A DNA stretch of 23,331 bases from a virus: the IMG/VR virus record IMGVR_UViG_3300010370_000256, positions 1 through 23,331 of that record; one strand, written 5' to 3'. The position numbers and the translations under genes were made by a program. The stretch's first letter is position 1; each line of letters starts with the position of its first letter. The notes beneath the pieces are model-generated. The model was not told the origin of the DNA. It saw only the letters and a program-made list of their open reading frames with translations, and did not search any database. Shown piece after piece: positions 3,167 to 23,331 of the stretch.

Positions 3167-4019
3167 AATCATTCTCCATTTCTGAGAAATACTGCAAAGG
3201 ATCTTTTTCTTCTGTTTCAGTAATTGTGGGTTCTTCCACATCATCCTCTACACTCTTGGATTCGATAAACTGTGCACGGATATCATCACCAACAGCCTTT
3301 TTAAACCTCTCATTAAGCTCCTCAAAGCTCTTGAATTGACTCTTATCAATGAATGGCTTGAGTGGGTATTGCTTCTTCCAAAGCTCTTCTAGCTTCTTAT
3401 CCTCACCTCCAAATAGAGGAGCGGGGGAAGCAAATTCGCTTCGATCATAATTTACATAACCGCCAACATTACGAATTTTTAGTTTAAAGTCTGCACCAGT
3501 CCAAAAATTAAATGGATCTACTGCAACTTCATCTTGAAACTCCGGATGAGCAAGACTTTGGATTTTTTGAAAAATCTTAGTACCGTACTGATAAAGGAAA
3601 ACTTTTCCTTTGTTTTCTGGATTTGCTGGATCCTCAAGAACTAAAATGTTTGAAATATAAGTCAACTTACGCTTGCGTTGACGAGCAATATTTTTATCAT
3701 CTTCAATTCCACTGTTCCAAAGTTCCGTATTTGCTGCACAAACCGGGCATTTTTCACCAATGGTAGTTGGGCAATTTTCATAAAGCCAACCACCTTTTCC
3801 TTTAAAAGTATGGCTATAAACAGCCACAAATGGACTATCTTCACCATCAATTTCTGGAAGAAAACGAATTACAGCATAACCATTTCCAGCTTTATCAATT
3901 CCAGGCTTCCAAAGCCGTTCATCTTTATAGCTGTCCTTCGATGTCATCTTTTCAAGACGTTGGGTTAAATTTGCGACAGAGTTTTTACTTTTCTTTTTAA
4001 AATCTGAAAAATTTGGCAT
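3165..4019 (-). CDS. 32: Single-stranded DNA-binding protein gp32
   Basis: A 284-residue homologue of T4 gp32 (301 residues), which coats ssDNA during replication, recombination and repair. The N-terminal basic FKKKS at residues 7-11 matches the T4 LAST motif used for cooperative binding. The zinc site is visible as H70, C83, C91, C94 (the His-Cys-Cys-Cys arrangement of T4). RKRKLT near 115-120 resembles the second basic LAST-like motif. The C-terminus is strongly acidic (residues 253-284), as in T4, where it recruits replication partners. Start ATG at 4019 follows GGGA in a leader containing a 6-bp hairpin. A sigma70-type promoter lies upstream and gp33 precedes it, as the T4 gene neighbourhood would predict. 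Confidence 0.95.
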   Translation of the reverse strand: MPNFSDFKKKSKNSVANLTQRLEKMTSKDSYKDERLWKPGIDKAGNGYAVIRFLPEIDGEDSPFVAVYSHTFKGKGGWLYENCPTTIGEKCPVCAANTELWNSGIEDDKNIARQRKRKLTYISNILVLEDPANPENKGKVFLYQYGTKIFQKIQSLAHPEFQDEVAVDPFNFWTGADFKLKIRNVGGYVNYDRSEFASPAPLFGGEDKKLEELWKKQYPLKPFIDKSQFKSFEELNERFKKAVGDDIRAQFIESKSVEDDVEEPTITETEEKDPLQYFSEMEND

Positions 4020-4027
4020 AATATTTC

Positions 4028-4044
4028 CCGAGGATCTACCTCGG
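4028..4044 (-). promoter_or_regulatory. Hairpin in the gp32 leader, possible translational operator
   Basis: On the minus strand CCGAGG, loop TAGAT, CCTCGG: a perfect 6-bp stem whose last base lies 8 nt before the gp32 ATG. The GGGA that could act as ribosome site overlaps its 3' edge. T4 gp32 represses its own translation by binding a structured leader; this element is in the right place but is not a recognised pseudoknot. Confidence 0.5.
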
Positions 4045-4057
4045 CCTTTCTGTGTTC

Positions 4058-4085
4058 AGTATATATTTAATCTAGATTTAGTCAA
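4058..4085 (-). promoter_or_regulatory. Sigma70-type promoter for gp32
   Basis: Minus-strand TTGACT (4085-4080), 16 nt spacer, TATACT (4063-4058); each box has 5 of 6 consensus matches. Transcription would start near 4051, giving a leader of about 32 nt with the hairpin. The -35 box overlaps the gp33 stop codon. Confidence 0.7.
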
Positions 4086-4311
4086 CAGGTAATTTAGTAG
4101 TTTTTTTGTTTTTTAAAATATTCAATCTTTTACCTTCTTGCTCTATTTTTTCAATAATGGGTTTTGTAAGAAGTTTTCCTGCTGCAGATGGTTCTAAACC
4201 CATTTCTTCACTTAACTCCAAAACACAATCCATAAATGATAATTTTGTTTTAGATACTCTTTGTAAAACTTGATTTGAAAATTTTTCTTTTGCTGTGTCG
4301 TCTATATACAT
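4078..4311 (-). CDS. 33: gp33-like late transcription coactivator
   Basis: A 77-residue protein when started at the ATG at 4311, which has GGAGAC 7 nt upstream; the longer frame to 4416 overlaps the divergent gene and has no ribosome site. The core (TKLSFMDCVLELSEE, then KPIIEKIEQEGKRLNIL) matches the small gp33 family of T4-type phages. In T4, gp33 bridges the sliding clamp gp45 and the RNA polymerase beta flap to activate late promoters, together with the sigma-like gp55. Its presence explains the many TATAAATA elements in this window. It lies directly upstream of gp32. Confidence 0.75.
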   Translation of the reverse strand: MYIDDTAKEKFSNQVLQRVSKTKLSFMDCVLELSEEMGLEPSAAGKLLTKPIIEKIEQEGKRLNILKNKKTTKLPVD

Positions 4312-11437: not shown

Positions 11438-11994
11438 ATATTTTTGTCCTTGCTGAAGATGCTGCTGAATCTGCTCGCATGATGTGTGATAAGCACGTTA
11501 TTAAAATGATTCTTGAATCTTGTCAGTTGCTTTCAACCGCTCATCACGTTCTTGATGGCGATGAATTGCATGTAAATACTGGCAAACGCAAGTATAAAAC
11601 TTATATTTGCACTAAAAAAAATATTTGTAAAGCAACAATGATCAATCATCCATGTACTATTTGGACTAGAGAAACTAGAGCAAATTACATTTGGCTTTGG
11701 CGGCATGCATACGCCTTGTGCAAAGAATATACTCGTCGGTATAAAAAAGTTCATGCAATGGAACAAATGTTGATGGATGAACTTTATGATCCCCCTATTA
11801 ATATTGCTAAAGGTAAAATTACCCCATTTGCCCAAGCAATGCCAGATCAATACAAAGATACCAACGCAGTAGTTGCATATCGTAAATACTATATTAACGA
11901 GAAGGTCCGCTTTGCGAAGTGGAAGGATTCTTTGCCCCCCGAGTGGTTTGTTTCGAAGAACCACGAACTTGTTGTGGAAGAACTTCCGTTTTAA
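11434..11994 (+). CDS. Conserved phage protein of unknown function (MNIF...CDKHVIKMI family)
   Basis: A 186-residue protein starting MNIFVLAEDAAESARM with CDKHVIKMILESCQLLSTAHH, then CKATMINHPCTIWTRE and NYIWLWRHAYALCKEY. I know this pattern from many phage genomes as a conserved protein without a settled function; conserved His, Cys and Asp residues suggest a metal or catalytic site. The ATG overlaps the GMP reductase stop (ATGA), so the two are cotranslated. The last 101 bases overlap the convergent lysozyme-like gene. Some databases link such proteins to DNA repair, which I cannot confirm. Confidence 0.6.
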   Translation: MNIFVLAEDAAESARMMCDKHVIKMILESCQLLSTAHHVLDGDELHVNTGKRKYKTYICTKKNICKATMINHPCTIWTRETRANYIWLWRHAYALCKEYTRRYKKVHAMEQMLMDELYDPPINIAKGKITPFAQAMPDQYKDTNAVVAYRKYYINEKVRFAKWKDSLPPEWFVSKNHELVVEELPF

Positions 11995-12685
11995 CCTTTT
12001 CTAATTTTTTAATATATTCTTCTGAATCTGGAGAGGGTGGTCCATAAATTGTGGTACCAGGAGCTCCTGCTGGAAGACGGTTAACTTCACTGCTTATTAC
12101 AGCAGCATCATCGTCCATTCTCAAAGCTATACCACGATCTCTAACTTTGTTGTCTTTTGGATGCGGTGTTCTATTTTTTGAAGACCTATACTCATCACTA
12201 TTTTTATATTCTTTGCTCGCCGCATCAAACTGTCCAGCTTTTAGTAATTTCATAGTTTTTGGTGAGCCCTGTAAACTTCCTCTATATTCCATAGTAAAAA
12301 GTCTAGTTTGTAGTTCTGGACTATATTGTTCATAATCTGGTAATATGCGATACATTGTATCTGCTCGCACCCTAACATCTCTATCAAATAATTTTTCTAC
12401 TTCGTCCCTAGTCATACTTCCGGTTCCAGTTGTAATATTTTTAAACCAATTTGGGTTTTTCATTTTTTCTGGAAAAAGTTCTGTAAAAATTTGTCTTGAT
12501 TTTTCTTTATCTTGTAGACTATGACCAATTCCAATTGTTGGATCGCCTTTTTCTGATCTATGTAATTTTAAAACTTCATCTGGTTTTGATTTGCTTTGCT
12601 CTAATGGGCGCAAAACTTCTTTAAACATATCAATATTTTGTTGTTTTTTATTTTGTTCTATAAGAAATTTTTTAAACCCAATCAT
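11894..12685 (-). CDS. T4-lysozyme-like muramidase with candidate capsid-targeting N-terminus
   Basis: A 263-residue protein. Residues 20-185 resemble phage T4 lysozyme: a helix with E37 as the likely catalytic acid, then T50-I-G-I-G-H55 as in T4, then MTRDEVEKLFDRDV matching the lysozyme helix ITKDEAEKLFNQDV. The T4 Asp20 is not in its usual place; E45 or D48 might replace it. The first residues MIGFKKFLIEQ match the T4 internal-protein capsid-targeting pattern (M-x-x-[FY]-x-x-F-[IL]-x-E) and contain L-I-E, a gp21-type cleavage site. The C-terminal 75 residues are Pro, Ser and Lys-rich. It could be an endolysin, but the N-terminus suggests a packaged virion lysozyme. No clear promoter or strong Shine-Dalgarno is seen. 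Confidence 0.7.
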   Translation of the reverse strand: MIGFKKFLIEQNKKQQNIDMFKEVLRPLEQSKSKPDEVLKLHRSEKGDPTIGIGHSLQDKEKSRQIFTELFPEKMKNPNWFKNITTGTGSMTRDEVEKLFDRDVRVRADTMYRILPDYEQYSPELQTRLFTMEYRGSLQGSPKTMKLLKAGQFDAASKEYKNSDEYRSSKNRTPHPKDNKVRDRGIALRMDDDAAVISSEVNRLPAGAPGTTIYGPPSPDSEEYIKKLEKVKTEVLPQQVRGSSKQTTRGAKNPSTSQSGPSR

Positions 12686-18240: not shown

Positions 18241-18777
18241 ATGCTCAAGTTTAAACAATTTTTACTTTTTGAAGATCTTGGAATTGGTCCAGAAGGTGGT
18301 TTAAAAAACCCATCACTAAAAGATAATATTAAAAAAGATAAACAAGAAGAGCAAGATCTTTATAGAAGATGGAAAATGACCGAACCAGGAACAGAAAAAG
18401 ATTTGTTGCGCGATCAATTAATGAAAAAAAGATTTGATATAGCAAGCTCAAAATCTTTAGCTTCTTCAGCAGCTACTACTAAACCCACTGACACTACTGA
18501 TACTGTTGTTATTCCACCGACAATAACTGAGCCAAAAATAACAGGACCAGACGGTAGGCCACTTAGTAAAGATGATGCAAAAACAATGTTAGGTGAATTT
18601 CCCAAAACTTCAGCACCTACATCTTCTTCAAGTATTTCTACAACGCTTCCAACTGGTACTGGTCAAATTTATAACGTATCACCATCTTCCAGTTTACAAA
18701 ATTCTGGTACTAGATCAGATTTAACTAATTTTTCAATAGAACAATTAGGTAAAACTGCAAAATCATATAGATTGTAA
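18241..18777 (+). CDS. Putative capsid-targeted internal protein (T4 IP-type N-terminus)
   Basis: A 178-residue protein starting MLKFKQFLLFEDLG. This is close to the T4 internal-protein targeting pattern (MKTYQEFIAEA), with aromatic at 4, F7, L8 and an acidic residue one position later; L9-F10-E11 fits the prohead protease rule. After a charged helical part (to about residue 65) the chain is Ser/Thr/Pro-rich (residues 75-165) and probably disordered. No enzyme motif is visible. It stands just before the array of proteins with a second type of shared N-terminus. Confidence 0.55.
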   Translation: MLKFKQFLLFEDLGIGPEGGLKNPSLKDNIKKDKQEEQDLYRRWKMTEPGTEKDLLRDQLMKKRFDIASSKSLASSAATTKPTDTTDTVVIPPTITEPKITGPDGRPLSKDDAKTMLGEFPKTSAPTSSSSISTTLPTGTGQIYNVSPSSSLQNSGTRSDLTNFSIEQLGKTAKSYRL

Positions 18778-18787
18778 TTTTTTATTG

Positions 18788-18795
18788 CATAAATA
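18788..18795 (+). promoter_or_regulatory. Late promoter CATAAATA for the 18801 gene
   Basis: CATAAATA, then TATGC (5 nt) and ATG 18801. The element lies in a perfect inverted repeat TGCATA-AATA-TATGCA (18786-18801) that reaches the A of the start codon. Confidence 0.55.
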
Positions 18796-18800
18796 TATGC

Positions 18801-19637
18801 ATGGAAGATTTTGTCTATTACAATAAATGTAAAAAATTACAAAATAGAATAAAACTGTTAGAAAATTTTTTAACAGAATATTATATTCCCCCAACAGAAT
18901 TTCAAACATCACCATGGCCCTCAATACCAACAGGCGAACAGTGGTGGCGGGATCCCAATTTTAATAAACCACAACAGGGCCCACAAGAATCTCCTGATCA
19001 AGAAATAGAAAAACCAGGAACTCCAACATATGTTTGGCCATCTTTGCCAAAATATAAAGTTCCACCAAAAGATTCTGATTATTTTCCACCAAATTATGGA
19101 AATCCAAAAAAACCACCAGATCCCAAATTATATAAACCAGGTGGTGTAAATCATCCCCAATATAGATTAGATTATGAAAAATGGGAAAAGGCTTTTAAAC
19201 TTTGGAAAGAACATTTATATAAATTTAATACTACCCCAGGTGGAAAAAGATACCCATCAACAAAAAATCTTAATTTGGAAAATAATTTTTTACCAAAAAC
19301 AAAAAAATTTAAATCTTGGAATCTTAATGAAATGGCTACAGAGGCGGGTCCGCCAACGGAAATTCCAAATCCTTTTGCACCGAATATGTATCAGCCACCA
19401 AAAGAAAAAGATGATTCTTTAGATTCTTTATTTCCTAGAGGACAAAATTATACGACACGGCCACCTCGTCCAATTGGATATCCCGCAGATTGGGATTGGC
19501 CACCAACAACAGAAGTTACCTGGACTTATAATGGGACAACTTATAAAGTAGGCCCACCAGGATTTTCTATTTGGGTTTGGAATCCAGATCCAAGGAACCC
19601 AAATCAGGGAACATGGTTTTGGAGAGATTGGTACTGA
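18801..19637 (+). CDS. Shared-N-terminus family, member 1: Pro/Trp-rich protein
   Basis: A 278-residue protein. Residues 1-26 (MEDFVYYNKCKKLQNRIKLL...) are a diverged copy of the amphipathic N-terminal helix shared by the next genes, with L-L-E21 and L-T-E26 as candidate gp21 cleavage sites. The remainder is very rich in Pro, Trp, Tyr, Asn and Lys with repeated phrases (WPSIP and WPSLP) and a final aromatic segment (GFSIWVWNPDPRN). Such composition suggests an extended, unfolded or polyproline-type chain rather than an enzyme. It starts a transcription unit of four family members with gaps of 0-8 nt. Confidence 0.55.
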   Translation: MEDFVYYNKCKKLQNRIKLLENFLTEYYIPPTEFQTSPWPSIPTGEQWWRDPNFNKPQQGPQESPDQEIEKPGTPTYVWPSLPKYKVPPKDSDYFPPNYGNPKKPPDPKLYKPGGVNHPQYRLDYEKWEKAFKLWKEHLYKFNTTPGGKRYPSTKNLNLENNFLPKTKKFKSWNLNEMATEAGPPTEIPNPFAPNMYQPPKEKDDSLDSLFPRGQNYTTRPPRPIGYPADWDWPPTTEVTWTYNGTTYKVGPPGFSIWVWNPDPRNPNQGTWFWRDWY

Positions 19638-19639
19638 AT

Positions 19640-20158
19640 ATGAATTACATAACAAATTATTATAAAAATGTATGCAAGCAACTTCAAAATAAAATAAATT
19701 TACTTGAAGTTTCTCTTGGCAATGCAAATTATAATTACAATTTGCCTAAATTTTTTAAAAAATCTAGTGAATTTGACGATGAGGGTGGAATCGGAGATAG
19801 TTTTTTAAATTTGCAAAAATTGCAAAATTTAGCTCCACCGTTAAGCCCCCCAAATACACCAATTAGCCCGAGTAAGCGCGGAACAGTAATTGTAAGTGGC
19901 GGAGCTACAGCAAAATCTATAACATCACCTACTATTCCTGTAAGACCTGGGAAAAAAGGTACTGTTGTTGCAACTGGTGGCTCTAGTTCGGAGTCAATTA
20001 TTGACCCATCAGTTGAACAAAGAGTAAGACTGGCTTCCGGTGAGGTAACACCGGGAACATGGATTCAGCAAAAAGGCTTTGATCCAAATGAAGAAGAAAA
20101 ATTAAAAATTCTTTCTAATTATGATTTACTACAAAAAGTTTTAAAAAGGTATGTTTAA
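19640..20158 (+). CDS. Shared-N-terminus family, member 2: protein with two 26-residue repeats
   Basis: A 172-residue protein when started at ATG 19640, the start shared with its family and 2 nt after the previous stop; a longer frame to 19571 lies inside that gene. Residues 1-24 are the family helix (MNYITNYYKNVCKQLQ) ending at L21-L-E23, a possible prohead protease site. Residues 71-122 are two adjacent 26-residue repeats with P..P..P..(K/R)GTV..(S/T)GG....SI. The end (from 130) is a separate helical part. No enzyme motif is seen. Confidence 0.55.
   Translation: MNYITNYYKNVCKQLQNKINLLEVSLGNANYNYNLPKFFKKSSEFDDEGGIGDSFLNLQKLQNLAPPLSPPNTPISPSKRGTVIVSGGATAKSITSPTIPVRPGKKGTVVATGGSSSESIIDPSVEQRVRLASGEVTPGTWIQQKGFDPNEEEKLKILSNYDLLQKVLKRYV
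19850..20005 (+). repeat. Two tandem 78-bp coding repeats
   Basis: The two units (19850-19927 and 19928-20005) encode 26 residues each with the same order of P, GTV, GG and SI. They are diverged at the DNA level, so an older duplication. Confidence 0.6.
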
Positions 20159-20659
20159 ATGGACTACTTAACAAATTATTACAAAAATCTTTGCGAACAA
20201 CTTCAAACAAGAGTTAATATCCTTGAAGCTGGATATGCTAAAGCCTTGCGTTCTGGTAGTAAAGAAAGAATGGAAAAAGAATTAGCCAGACAAAAATATT
20301 TGCAAAAATTTAAAGAAGAACTTTCAGATAAAGGTATTGATATAGGAACTGAAAACTTTAACACATTGGATCCAGAAGTACAAAGACTTATGAATCCTTC
20401 AGACGCAAAAAGAATGAATCTTGTTAATATCAGAACAGGTAATATCAAAACAGGTACTGACGGAAAAGAATATACTACAGGCAGAAAAGGACATAAAGAG
20501 AACATACAAAATCTTGCAATGCCCTTGGATATAGAATATCCTCTCCCTGGAGGAAAAAGAAGAGTTACCTTAAAAGATCTTCCAGCAGAGAGCCCATTCC
20601 CATCAGACCTACCATTTGGAAGTAGGATGATTCCACACAGCTCAAACGCAACGTATTGA
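20159..20659 (+). CDS. Shared-N-terminus family, member 3
   Basis: A 166-residue protein starting directly after the previous stop. Residues 1-23 (MDYLTNYYKNLCEQLQ...) are the family helix; I21-L-E23 followed by Ala fits the T4 prohead protease site best of all members. The remainder is charged: a Lys/Arg/Glu-rich helix to about residue 55, then a region with RTGNIKTGTDG and GRKGHKENIQN, then a short Pro-rich end. I do not recognise a fold. G+C rises after the N-terminal module. Confidence 0.55.
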   Translation: MDYLTNYYKNLCEQLQTRVNILEAGYAKALRSGSKERMEKELARQKYLQKFKEELSDKGIDIGTENFNTLDPEVQRLMNPSDAKRMNLVNIRTGNIKTGTDGKEYTTGRKGHKENIQNLAMPLDIEYPLPGGKRRVTLKDLPAESPFPSDLPFGSRMIPHSSNATY

Positions 20660-20667
20660 GGGCTATT

Positions 20668-21276
20668 ATGAATTACATAACAAATTATTATAAAAATTTA
20701 TCAGAACAACTTCAAGAAAAAATTTTCAAATTGGAAAAAACTTTAAATGAAGTAGTTCGACCAACTTTTATTCCCTTAACCGTGGCATATGATGACAGCG
20801 GTGATCCACCACCACAGGTAGCGACATTGACCGATGCTGAAGAAGAAGAATTGCTTAAAGTGGACGCTTACGGTGGCAGATACCCAAATAAAGAATACGC
20901 TCACCATGACAGGGCCTGGAGAGCGTATGAAATGGGAATAAGCGACATCAACACCTCATTATTTCTTAACAAGCACAGAGCGAAACAAGATCTACTGGCA
21001 AAAAATACATACCGTGGAAGACCACTCAGCAGCATGCCCGGGTCTAAAACAGCACAAAATCTTATAGCTAATTTCGAAAGATCTTACCAAGATTCACCTG
21101 ATTTGGTGGCCCAAAAAGCAGGAAAAGAAATTCTAAAAAACTTGAGCATGCGCATACTGGATAACTTCCCAGGGGACAAAGAATTCCTGAATGCCGAAGG
21201 AGAAAGAATAGACCGCATTGCAGGCAGAAGACAGACAAAAAACAACTGGCCATTTGGTACATACACGGGAGATTAA
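20668..21276 (+). CDS. Shared-N-terminus family, member 4
   Basis: A 202-residue protein when started at ATG 20668 (MNYITNYYKNLSEQLQEK), the family start; the frame extends upstream to a TTG at 20656 but the family alignment favours the ATG. L26-N-E28 is the candidate cleavage site. The tail has a charged helical part (ATLTDAEEEELLKVDAYGGR), then many His, Arg and Lys residues and a final GRRQTKNNWPFGT. It is richer in G+C than the module and has no known motif. It ends before a bidirectional terminator. Confidence 0.55.
   Translation: MNYITNYYKNLSEQLQEKIFKLEKTLNEVVRPTFIPLTVAYDDSGDPPPQVATLTDAEEEELLKVDAYGGRYPNKEYAHHDRAWRAYEMGISDINTSLFLNKHRAKQDLLAKNTYRGRPLSSMPGSKTAQNLIANFERSYQDSPDLVAQKAGKEILKNLSMRILDNFPGDKEFLNAEGERIDRIAGRRQTKNNWPFGTYTGD
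20678..20721 (+). repeat. 44-bp direct repeat, copy 1
   Basis: Identical to 21992-22035 and lying inside the N-terminal module of two family members; it begins TAACAAATTATTA and ends TTCAAGAAAAA. Other members carry similar but diverged copies (19640, 20159, 21600). Confidence 0.85.
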
Positions 21277-21336
21277 ACCATATTATGCACTTCCAACCAC
21301 CTTGGAGGCCACCGGGTTTTTAAAATTTTTTCGATA

Positions 21337-21372
21337 AAAAATTGGGCCCCCCAAAAAGGAGGCCCAATTTTT
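21337..21372. terminator. Bidirectional intrinsic terminator
   Basis: AAAAATTGGGCC pairs with GGCCCAATTTTT, with an inner CC...GG around AAAAA. It lies between the plus-strand gene ending at 21276 and the minus-strand gene ending at 21389. The stretch 21277-21336 holds no gene. Confidence 0.8.
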
Positions 21373-21388
21373 ATTTTAGTGCTTTTTC

Positions 21389-21553
21389 TTACTTAGTTTC
21401 AACTACTGCTTCAGCAGCCTTTTCAGCCTTGTGGTGCTTCTTGTTGCTGTTTTCTTTAGTTAAAGCAACAAAAAGAGCTAATGCAGCAATTCCTAGAACG
21501 ATCCATTCAATTTTAGTAACCTTAGCCAAAACATTTTTAATTTTTGTTAGCAT
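21389..21553 (-). CDS. Small single-span membrane protein
   Basis: A 54-residue protein below the size of most gene lists. It starts at ATG 21553 after AAGGAAAA, runs through a basic N-terminus (MLTKIKNVLAKVTK), one membrane span (WIVLGIAALALFVAL, residues 17-31) and a soluble tail with KKHHK and an alternating Ala/Lys/Glu helix. The positive N-terminus and charged tail on the other side fit an inner-membrane anchor. It could be a small holin-like or superinfection-type protein; nothing proves either. It stands antisense within the shared-N-terminus array and ends at the terminator 21337-21372. Confidence 0.65.
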   Translation of the reverse strand: MLTKIKNVLAKVTKIEWIVLGIAALALFVALTKENSNKKHHKAEKAAEAVVETK

Positions 21554-21570
21554 AATATTTTCCTTTTACA

Positions 21571-21578
21571 TATTTAGA
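21571..21578 (-). promoter_or_regulatory. Late-type promoter TCTAAATA for the membrane protein gene
   Basis: Minus-strand TCTAAATA, 6 of 8 matches. It would leave about 12 nt of leader with AGGA before ATG 21553. Confidence 0.4.
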
Positions 21579-21586
21579 ATCATTTT

Positions 21587-21594
21587 TATAAATA
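21587..21594 (+). promoter_or_regulatory. Exact late promoter TATAAATA for the 21600 gene
   Basis: Full consensus match, then ACTTT (5 nt) and ATG 21600. No Shine-Dalgarno sequence; a leaderless transcript is predicted. Confidence 0.7.
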
Positions 21595-21599
21595 ACTTT

Positions 21600-21926
21600 A
21601 TGGATTACCTAACAAATTACTACAAAAATTTGTCTGAAGAACTTCAAATAAGAGTAAATTATCTTACCTTCATATTAAATGAAGCAGAAATGCCATTTTC
21701 AAGATACGATAATGCAAAAAATGATCCGTATCTTACAGGAGAATATCCAAGAACAGATTGGCTACCGGATCCCTATCCGGGAGATCGATATGGTGACCAA
21801 GACGGGCTGGAAGACTGGATTACAATTCCAAGAATCAAAAAACCCCGTGGCCCCGGATTCAAACCAACGGTCTGGGATCTTGTGATAGATCGTTGGGAGA
21901 ACAAGAAGAAAAAGAACGTACAATAA
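21600..21926 (+). CDS. Shared-N-terminus family, member 5
   Basis: A 108-residue protein. The frame is open upstream to 21342, but that part is antisense to the membrane protein gene; the family start at ATG 21600 is chosen. Residues 1-28 are the helix, ending L26-N-E28 followed by Ala, a good prohead protease site. The tail is short, acidic and aromatic with PYLTGEYPRTDWLPDPYPGDR and a C-terminal WDLVIDRWENKKKK. No known domain. It has its own exact late promoter. Confidence 0.55.
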   Translation: MDYLTNYYKNLSEELQIRVNYLTFILNEAEMPFSRYDNAKNDPYLTGEYPRTDWLPDPYPGDRYGDQDGLEDWITIPRIKKPRGPGFKPTVWDLVIDRWENKKKKNVQ

Positions 21927-21968
21927 AAAATAAAAAATAACTTAAATTTTATATCATAATTGTCTGTT

Positions 21969-21976
21969 TATAAATA
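21969..21976 (+). promoter_or_regulatory. Exact late promoter TATAAATA for the 21982 gene
   Basis: Full consensus match, then AATTT (5 nt) and ATG 21982. No Shine-Dalgarno sequence; a leaderless transcript is predicted. Confidence 0.7.
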
Positions 21977-21981
21977 AATTT

Positions 21982-22584
21982 ATGGATTACCTAACAAATT
22001 ATTATAAAAATTTATCAGAACAACTTCAAGAAAAAGTTAATAATTTAGAACAACTTTTGGAGTACAGGCAGAAAAGGACAGTCTACCTTGATGTAGTGGA
22101 TGTAGATCCTTACACTGGTGAAGATGTTCCTCGTATTATTGGAACAGAAGTAACCGCACAAGGAAACCCTCTCGGCAAGGGAGCCAGAAAAGAACAAACA
22201 TTCTCCGTATACCCTGGTATGGGAGCAATTCGAAACGTTCCTGACCAAGAATATCATACACGGGAGATCGTATCAAACTCGGGCAGACCAACCGTAAAAG
22301 ACAATCCAATCTATGCTTCAATGAAAGGCAAAGGACCAGCAATAGAAGTTGGAAGTGGAGAAATATTCCAAGATACCTCTGACATGAGAATAAGAGGTGG
22401 ATCTGTTCCAGGAACAGGCAAAAAGTTAAGAAAGAAAAATTTAGCAATTGCATTAGCACAAATAGAAGCTCAAAAAGCTTCCAGAGATCTAAACCCAAAT
22501 GTACATGATGGTCCAGATCCAGATACTACTGCAAGTGCAGCTGAGGTTGCAGCATCTCAACAAAGAAGACAATTAGGCCAATAA
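21982..22584 (+). CDS. Shared-N-terminus family, member 6
   Basis: A 200-residue protein whose residues 1-27 are the family helix (MDYLTNYYKNLSEQLQEK), with L25-L-E27 as candidate cleavage site. The tail contains DVVDVDPYTGEDVPRIIGTE, many Gly, Pro, Lys and Arg residues, and ends in an Ala/Gln-rich helix (AAEVAASQQRRQLGQ). It is richer in G+C than the module. No enzyme motif is seen. It is the last AT-rich gene before the change in base composition and is followed by a strong terminator. Confidence 0.55.
   Translation: MDYLTNYYKNLSEQLQEKVNNLEQLLEYRQKRTVYLDVVDVDPYTGEDVPRIIGTEVTAQGNPLGKGARKEQTFSVYPGMGAIRNVPDQEYHTREIVSNSGRPTVKDNPIYASMKGKGPAIEVGSGEIFQDTSDMRIRGGSVPGTGKKLRKKNLAIALAQIEAQKASRDLNPNVHDGPDPDTTASAAEVAASQQRRQLGQ
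21992..22035 (+). repeat. 44-bp direct repeat, copy 2
   Basis: Identical to 20678-20721, within the module of member 6. Confidence 0.85.
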
Positions 22585-22642: not shown

Positions 22643-22814
22643 ATGGCATACCATGTATTTTAAGGTTTGGGGTAATGGGGGGTGGCCAAAAAATTTTTAG
22701 ACCATCCAGGATATTTGAGAATATTTAAGAAAATTTGAGGGGATGGGAGCTAGCCGTTCCGATAACGCTGTGGTCTATGGGACCCAAATCACTACTCGGA
22801 CATTGCGAAAACAA
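22643..22814. other. Intergenic stretch containing the compositional change
   Basis: No gene is seen. The plus strand is G-rich with AT tracts (GGGGTAATGGGGGGTGG) up to about 22740, then becomes balanced and finally G+C-rich. I found no direct repeat, attachment core or tRNA in it by eye. Confidence 0.5.
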
Positions 22815-22843
22815 AGATGCTCGGCGCTTCGCGCCGAGCATCT
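22815..22843 (-). terminator. Intrinsic terminator of the zinc-ribbon gene
   Basis: A perfect 13-bp stem AGATGCTCGGCGC with a 3-nt loop (GAA on the minus strand), followed on the minus strand by TTGTTTTCG. It lies 24 nt after the minus-strand stop at 22868. Confidence 0.8.
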
Positions 22844-22867
22844 GAGGGGCTGAGGGGAGGGCTGGGG

Positions 22868-23074
22868 TTACCAGTCCGGGTACTCATCCTCGGGCACATC
22901 CCACCCGTAGGGCCGCTCATCGTCGGCCTCGTAGCCAGTCGGGTAGTCGTCTTCCATCGCCTCCACGCAGTTCTCGCACAGGTCGTGGTCGTTGGGCGCG
23001 TCCTCGCTGTTGCCGCAACGCGGGCAGCGGGGCTCGGGGCGGGGGGTTTCTTCGTTGGTGGTGCTGTTGAGCAT
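22868..23074 (-). CDS. Small zinc-ribbon-like protein
   Basis: A 68-residue acidic protein when started at ATG 23074. CPRCGNS and CENCV form a CxxC...CxxC pair about 16 residues apart, a likely zinc site. The end is rich in Asp, Glu, Pro, Tyr and Trp. A GTG at 23092 could extend the frame, but that segment contains the -10 box. Base composition (about 69% G+C in 22861-23040) and codon use differ completely from the phage genes to the left. Function unknown. Confidence 0.6.
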   Translation of the reverse strand: MLNSTTNEETPRPEPRCPRCGNSEDAPNDHDLCENCVEAMEDDYPTGYEADDERPYGWDVPEDEYPDW

Positions 23075-23080
23075 GCGCGT

Positions 23081-23109
23081 AGTATAGCACACCGCCCCCT
23101 CGGTTGCAA
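23081..23109 (-). promoter_or_regulatory. Sigma70-type promoter for the zinc-ribbon gene
   Basis: Minus-strand TTGCAA (23109-23104), 17 nt, TATACT (23086-23081). The seventh base after the -10 box is the A of ATG 23074, so a leaderless mRNA, common in actinobacteria, is predicted. Confidence 0.5.
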
Positions 23110-23148
23110 GGGGTGCGGTGGAAGTTTATTCGAATTTCTTTCGGGGGC

Positions 23149-23331
23149 TTACATCTCGCCCCAACCGGCTGATGCCAGCCAGTCGTTATCGGCATCCCAG
23201 TCCTCGCGGGTCATGCTCCCGCAGGCATCCGCGAACGCCTGATTGTCCGCCTCACGGCTCGCGTCCTCAAACGAGGGCTCGGCGTGCTCGCCGTTCCTGC
23301 GCGCCTCGCGCTCGCGCTCGCGCTCCTCTTC
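23149..23331 (-). CDS. C-terminal part of an acidic protein, 5' end beyond the window
   Basis: The frame is open from the right edge to TAA at 23149-23151, giving 60 residues. They begin with a Glu/Arg alternation (EEERERERE), then a mixed part ending DWDADNDWLASAGWGEM. High G+C in third positions supports coding. It lies upstream of the zinc-ribbon gene on the same strand with its own gap of 74 nt. No family is recognised from the visible part. Confidence 0.5.
   Translation of the reverse strand, partial: EEEREREREARRNGEHAEPSFEDASREADNQAFADACGSMTREDWDADNDWLASAGWGEM

Follow-up and report, generated by a model that had tools for sequence, protein, structure and literature searches.

An N-terminal helix ending at a prohead-protease-like site as a probable capsid-targeting tag on variable proteins of uncultured T4-like phages

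Why would six neighbouring proteins of one virus start with the same helix and continue into tails that have nothing in common? The question was raised by the IMG/VR virus record IMGVR_UViG_3300010370_000256, whose 23,331 bases were analysed as a whole (hereafter the window). Six open reading frames (ORFs) were located on the plus strand at 18801-19637, 19640-20158, 20159-20659, 20668-21276, 21600-21926 and 21982-22584, which were the positions given in the sequence-only reading of the window. That reading took the shared N-terminal module for a second, longer type of capsid-targeting tag that is cut at [LI]xE, and the tails for payloads; the comparative tests supported it. The module is very probably a removable N-terminal capsid-targeting propeptide, functionally like the capsid-targeting sequence (CTS) of the T4 internal proteins but longer. 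All of the evidence for this assignment was comparative sequence evidence. The position-specific enrichment of [LI]xE ended where the conservation of the module ended, and the tails avoided [LI]xE. Some payloads stood behind the module in one phage and behind a T4-type sequence in another, with [LI]xE as the point of exchange. Moreover, the protease gp21 and the shell protein gp23, with [LI]xE clustered in its propeptide, were encoded in the same phages, and the T4 proteins IPI-IPIII showed the same signature, free of sites and of cysteine.

The five clear copies of the module in the window began M[DN]Y[LI]TNYYKN[LV][SC][EK][QE]LQ, had 11 invariant columns in 27 and were 59-70% identical to the first of the five. 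The copy at 18801, which had been counted as a full member, stood only as a divergent one; it was alignable only with small gaps and was not picked up by the consensus search. The search with a hidden Markov model (HMM) that had been proposed as a check was run on IMG/VR. A profile of the five copies gave 77 loci on 72 contigs, and the rebuilt HMM gave 179 module-starting proteins, or 180 with the 18801 protein (window included; 153 distinct at 90%). The module started at an ATG in 179 proteins, and four other HMM matches were internal or without an ATG, two of them within fused proteins. Behind this one module, 61 unrelated tail groups were found, 36 of them singletons. The tails of the six window proteins were unrelated as well, in agreement with the earlier claim; the only family match among them was that of the 21982 tail to phrog_9391 (E=4e-4, unknown function). 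No Pfam/PHROG family was common to more than nine of 148 module proteins. Up to six module genes stood in tandem on one contig with T4-like tags interspersed, and tagged genes lay next to each other in 96 pairs (median gap 18 nt), 20 of which combined the module with a T4-type tag.

An amphipathic helix was predicted for residues 2-32 of the module (AlphaFold, modest confidence, pLDDT 66). Such a helix could also serve as a docking or coiled-coil module for the tail, baseplate, fibre or whisker and stay on the mature protein, and the EF-hand/dockerin repeats of some tails, which belong to a domain type that surface proteins can also contain, would agree with this. The modules of the window had no significant Pfam/PHROG family or docking domain, and only weak matches such as phrog_14763 (E=0.16, unknown function) appeared. 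The idea that the module is a known tail or fibre docking domain thus found no significant Pfam/PHROG match.

The motif [LI]xE was present where it had been claimed, with E at residues 21/26, 23, 23, 28, 28 and 27 of the window proteins in gene order. In the column profile, conservation was strong to about L26, the consensus was L-N-E-A at 26-29, and the background level was reached beyond. An [LI]xE starting at residues 20-34 was found in 120 of 123 modules (distinct at 75%), whereas 42.3 +/- 4.9 were expected from row shuffles and 70.7 +/- 3.7 from column shuffles. The motifs [LI]xQ, [LI]xK, [LI]xD, [LI]xxE and Ex[LI] remained at or below the column-shuffle level. Just downstream, at residues 35-50, [LI]xE was scarce (2 against 14-18 expected). 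Modules without the later site (start 24-34) tended to have an earlier one (start 20-21; Fisher p=5e-12), and in 58 of the 61 tail clusters all members had the end-of-module [LI]xE. The region of the site was not directly selected, because the search patterns spanned residues 1-15 only; the tblastn confirmation used 27 residues. Further [LI]xE motifs lay inside the module at residues 11-13 and often at 15-17; hence, cleavage may occur at more than one place in the module.

A different explanation is that a recently duplicated 5' gene segment, arising for example through recombination at late-promoter/start regions that the genes share, spread together with its promoter and without a targeting role, [LI]xE being a by-product of a helix rich in L and E. 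T-even phages do shuffle their internal-protein genes, and about a third of the module genes had late-promoter-like sites (53/153 against 21/334). A compositional origin of [LI]xE was rejected, as neither the composition-matched shuffles nor the control motifs reproduced the enrichment. The avoidance of the site in the tails and the tag swaps at the site would also be unexplained by duplication, which was already disfavoured and was rated as extremely improbable.

The module copies and payloads of the window, with the predicted cuts, are as follows (all on the plus strand).

18801..18878, plus strand: divergent module copy, MEDFVYYNKCKKLQNRIKLLENFLTE, predicted cut after E26, earlier site at E21
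18879..19634, plus strand: payload 1, 252 aa, Pro/Trp-rich, no Cys
19640..19708, plus strand: module MNYITNYYKNVCKQLQNKINLLE, predicted cut after E23
19709..20155, plus strand: payload 2, 149 aa, no Cys, no [LI]xE
20159..20227, plus strand: module MDYLTNYYKNLCEQLQTRVNILE, predicted cut after E23
20228..20656, plus strand: payload 3 (AGYAKALRSG...)
20668..20751, plus strand: module MNYITNYYKNLSEQLQEKIFKLEKTLNE, predicted cut after E28
20752..21273, plus strand: payload 4 (VVRPTFIPLTVAYDDSGDPP...), also behind other tags in G003 (3467-4093, minus strand) and L026 (11319-11882)
21600..21683, plus strand: module MDYLTNYYKNLSEELQIRVNYLTFILNE, predicted cut after E28
21684..21923, plus strand: payload 5, 80 aa, no Cys, no [LI]xE
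21982..22062, plus strand: module MDYLTNYYKNLSEQLQEKVNNLEQLLE, predicted cut after E27, AlphaFold helix at residues 2-29
22063..22581, plus strand: payload 6, 173 aa, relatives in many contigs

No relative of payload 1 was found by family scans or by the tail clustering of module proteins. In the payload 6 protein, beta strands were predicted by AlphaFold from residue 33, just past the tag helix.

The tails were depleted in [LI]xE rather than free of it. From residue 37 on, 88 sites were counted against 196.7 expected (0.45), and with one tail per cluster 48 against 80.5 (0.60). Some contigs were near-identical and homologous tails were non-independent; the cluster-weighted ratio, which allows for both, was 0.54 (95% bootstrap 0.41-0.68). 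The six window tails held one site against 6.4 expected. By comparison, the ratio was 1.18 for 782 other ORFs of the same loci, with genes called as simple ORFs throughout. A general shortage of [LI]xE in proteins poor in L and I was tried as an explanation and rejected, since ORFs as L/I-poor as the tails gave 1.30. Proteins with T4-CTS-like tags in the same contigs had 0.50 of the expected sites in their tails. In the T4 control, IPI, IPII and IPIII had no [LI]xE past the CTS and no Cys, although they are short and only 2.8 sites were expected in all of them; the other proteins of the T4 stretch had a ratio of 1.19.

The T4 core group gp21/gp22/gp67/gp68, which is processed by gp21, had 2.41 times the expected [LI]xE. 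This value bears on the possibility that the module proteins are scaffold or core parts, whose tails enter the prohead and are degraded or lost before DNA packaging instead of becoming cargo of the mature head. The one or two inner sites of the module would fit a protein of this kind. However, the tails were depleted in [LI]xE, which is the opposite of the T4 core proteins and the same as the T4 internal proteins, and they were highly variable (61 clusters), so that very little probability was given to a core role.

Cysteine was scarce as well. Among 151 mature payloads, 6% contained any Cys (0.06% of residues), the six window tails had none, and 53 of the 61 tail groups were Cys-free; in contrast, 84% of the other genes of at least 150 aa in two contigs had Cys (1.3%). 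Payloads behind T4-type tags were intermediate (35% with Cys). In the tag itself, position 12 was Cys in 67 of 153 proteins. The scarcity may reflect a restriction that acts on the mature part alone, such as a need to pass through the tail or to exist outside a reducing cytoplasm. A further feature of these proteins was a C-terminal Tyr, found in 24/151 module proteins and 8/381 control ORFs, often as ..QY, ..ATY or ..SHY; in the window it was observed at 20656 (..PHSSNATY) and 19634 (..WRDWY).

Payload swaps were sought by comparing the tails with all ORFs. Five payload families occurred behind the module in one phage and behind the T4-type 10-residue CTS in others. In unconstrained local alignments of module and T4-type proteins, the similarity started at or within three residues of [LI]xE, with E aligned to E. 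The junctions are listed below, with a slash after the E of the site.

Swap family: ..NLLE/AGLKKAL against ..HLHE/SGLKKAL and LQE/SGLKKAL
Swap family: ..YLTE/VENWDEQ against ..FLRE/AVENWDEQ
Swap family: ..IAE/QKIASGETTLDPDFLEKK against ..LRE/QVVPEGSTTSDPEFLEKK
Swap family: ..LIE/AELSKKT against ..LNE/APLSPAT
Swap family, short and weaker: ..LLE/AQIYSPE against ..LQE/AEIYSPE

Relatives of payload 3 carried GLKKAL directly after [LI]xE behind either tag. Within this family the tag end moved by five residues (LLE/AG, or LSEAG and LNEGG), and GLKKAL stayed directly behind it. About 70 proteins of the same contigs with the T4-type tag MKSFKQFLxE were gathered by a regular expression that requires the E; hence, only their tails, and not their tag site, count as evidence. 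Two further tags were found. The third tag, MSYSFFPNDF..NLQDQ.FLMKQKQ, was carried by the 20668 payload in L026, ending VNE/ASRPTFIPLT. The fourth, MFKDHL.FSNNLQDAA.., was found in L072 and L037, and its relative in G003 bore the 20668 payload, ending TLNE/MGRPNFIPLT. The alignments of module proteins to these two tags extended into the tag, which suggests that the three long tags could be remotely related; one pair (L063/L037) was not aligned at the site.

A docking or coiled-coil helix would explain neither the [LI]xE at the module end nor the avoidance of the site in the tails, nor why the same payload can have a 10-residue T4-type CTS in place of the module. With these three observations, the docking alternative raised by the sequence-only reading was not favoured and was considered very unlikely.

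The processing machinery was consistent with the targeting propeptide. The gp21 gene (Peptidase S77, PF03420) was found in 15 of 49 records and gp23 (PF07068) in the same 15. The gp23 proteins of the clade had [LI]xE at residues 12, 40 and 53, with an additional one at 25 in one protein, and the other ~410 residues held a single further site. Most records without gp21/gp23 were fragments, so that the absence says little there; yet three contigs of 82-117 kb lacked both genes. The nearest cultured relatives of gp23 were those of cyanophages, at about 53-54% identity. When two full-length window proteins, the neighbouring 1311-aa protein and the 29-residue module consensus were compared by tblastn with 50,697 phage records, no relative appeared, and no module match was obtained in the bacterial and archaeal genomes that were scanned. 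The identity level of gp23 and the lack of cultured or prokaryotic matches point to a distant, apparently uncultured branch.

Several observations weigh against a capsid-targeting propeptide. The tblastn search with the consensus found no module in a cultured phage, and the sequence of the module is not obviously similar to that of the T4 CTS, MKTYQEFIAE. Three of the 123 modules had no [LI]xE at residues 20-34, and some payloads held an internal site, such as payload 1 of 18801 with a single [LI]xE ending at residue 177. The window, a 23-kb fragment, contained neither gp21 nor gp23. Among the module payloads no domain was found that proves injection, and Foldseek searches of one payload with AlphaFold models (pLDDT 66) gave no significant match.

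Pfam/PHROG scans of the payloads gave few matches, namely EF-hand/dockerin, DUF7178 and a shared segment of PHROG peptidase/endolysin profiles; the EF-hand/dockerin repeats recurred among payloads that were otherwise mostly of unknown kind. Behind T4-type tags of the same contigs, ADP-ribosyltransferase, methyltransferase and lysozyme domains were present, which fits delivery to the host; ADP-ribosyltransferase is the activity of T4 Alt. The ADP-ribosyltransferase domain (ART-PolyVal) was in L076 (12877-13671, minus strand) and the methyltransferase domain in L020 (8688-9230), and both enzymes are probably carried in the head. In L018 (1878-2753), the T4-type tag MKTFKQFLNE stood on a protein with Phage_lysozyme and LysM domains, and a lysozyme-like protein of the window (11894-12685, minus strand) had the head tag MIGFKKFLIE. 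These T4-type-tagged proteins suggest that a lysozyme may be packaged in the head.

The proposed mechanism would start with late transcription, which would yield the tagged proteins. Their amphipathic helix would dock into the scaffold core of the assembling prohead, and a gp21-type protease would then cut after the [LI]xE at the helix end and probably also within the helix. The tail would remain inside the head after the cut, be packed alongside the DNA and perhaps be ejected into the next host. Head targeting and cleavage were well supported by inference from the sequence patterns, and the physical presence of the proteins in the head, their packaging and their docking to the core are likewise inferred. 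Injection of payloads into the host is only plausible, and the ejection and the role of each payload are the least certain parts of the model. It seemed reasonably likely that this uncultured T4-like branch loads its head via at least four interchangeable N-terminal tags (the module, the T4-type 10-residue tag, MSYSFFPNDF..NLQDQ.FLMKQKQ and MFKDHL.FSNNLQDAA..), each of which terminates at the protease site or close to it. Together these tags would carry dozens of unrelated payloads, which would have evolved to be poor in protease sites and Cys on account of their later passage through the tail into the host. The phages of the clade probably carry a large, swappable protein cargo that may reach the host.

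If this is true, the combination of a tag, an [LI]xE boundary and a site-poor, Cys-free tail would be a signature of the head-packaged proteins of uncultured T4-like phages that can be recognised from DNA alone. Dozens of unknown protein families would then join the list of probable virion-delivered proteins, which in T4 includes Alt and the anti-restriction protein IPI. Moreover, head-import tags would be shown to be exchangeable modules, new tags would be available for trials of protein loading into phage heads, and the head contents and injected proteins of phages known from metagenomes only would become testable.

Known systems were compared with the module. In T4, gp21 cuts after L/I-x-E, the first 10 residues of IPIII are enough for targeting, and in the IPIII CTS residues 4 and 7 target and residues 8 and 10 are for processing (PMC9026906). 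The T4 internal proteins combine one short tag with diverse tails (PMC3012670). Like the CTS of IPI, IPII, IPIII and Alt, the module is N-terminal, ends at [LI]xE for gp21 and stands before unrelated payloads; as in IPI-IPIII, for which this was tested, the mature parts are poor in [LI]xE and Cys. Unlike the T4 CTS, the module contains additional internal [LI]xE sites and heads as many as six genes in tandem; phages with the module also have the T4-type tag. The sequence features of the IPIII type (~10 residues, aromatics at 4 and 7, L/I at 8 and E at 10) were not found in the module, which by contrast reads MNYLTNYYKNLSEQLQ..., has 23-33 residues and has its site at residue 21-28. The module works like a T4 CTS and is not one by sequence; it is a separate tag type. 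The gp23 propeptide of T4 is similar in having several [LI]xE in an N-terminal piece (three in 55 residues in gp23 of the clade), but it sits on the shell protein, whereas the module sits on variable cargo.

Head and ejection proteins of the giant phages SPN3US and phiKZ have N-terminal propeptides that are cut by the prohead protease and have been proposed to target the head (PMC5694885). The module resembles them in being a probable N-terminal propeptide for removal by the prohead protease, with a proposed role in sending proteins to the head. However, several of those propeptides exceed 100 residues and have sites such as AVE and ALE, whereas the module is one short conserved helix on dozens of unrelated proteins and is swapped among them. 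In phage P1, the first 30 residues of DarB are enough to bring a reporter into the capsid (PMC9024508), an N-terminal signal of similar role; unlike the module, the Dar N-termini have no shared consensus that was found, and P1 is an unrelated phage. The literature searches found the T4, P1 and giant-phage tags and nothing on the module, with most subscription papers outside their coverage. Within the literature that was searched, the module itself, the scale on which it occurs and the way it swaps with the T4-type tag at the protease site are new.

Other arrangements of the tags were also observed. Single ORFs in L063 (10001-11302) and L032 (3931-4671) held a second, internal module copy ending in [LI]xE; each is a predicted polyprotein from which cleavage would release two payloads. 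In L037, the second of the L063 payloads was encoded by a separate gene with another tag. In-frame double tags, MAYSFFPNDF..PNLQ.NA.MNYLTQHYKNL.., in which another tag type immediately precedes the module, were found at L032:3868, L036:9938, L043:9938 and L070:4889. A variable gene between gp21 and gp22 (L085:2082-2882, L088:2079, L096:2079 and L097:2079) had a different N-terminus ending near LLE-A/LVE-S and is possibly a further tagged internal protein.

The window encoded T4-type proteins for head closure, tail tube, baseplate hub, a gp32-like single-stranded DNA-binding protein and a late transcription regulator. The remaining features related to the tags are given below.

18241..18777, plus strand: gene with T4-type capsid-targeting sequence MLKFKQFLLFE, directly upstream of the cassette
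11894..12685, minus strand: second T4-type tag in the window, MIGFKKFLIEQ, on the protein with a lysozyme-like TIGIGH motif, which had no Pfam match
18788..18795, plus strand: T4 late-promoter-like CATAAATA, upstream of 18801
21587..21594, plus strand: T4 late-promoter-like TATAAATA, upstream of 21600
21969..21976, plus strand: T4 late-promoter-like TATAAATA, upstream of 21982

The cassette ORFs followed each other end to end, save a 55-nt gap before 21982 and a longer gap at 21277-21599. The six genes had been described as adjacent; all were present, but the run was broken by a small ORF on the opposite strand (21389-21553), which encodes a 54-aa membrane peptide. A similar membrane-peptide ORF (MLTKIKNFVKKVTVLEWVVLGIAILAL..) adjoined the homologue of payload 4 in G003 (3226-3405). 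Towards the window end (22700-23331) the GC content rose to about 50%. A chimeric assembly was considered for these last ~600 bases, but GC-rich stretches of similar look occurred in the related contigs G003 and G016; the GC-rich end is probably a variable region rather than a misassembly.

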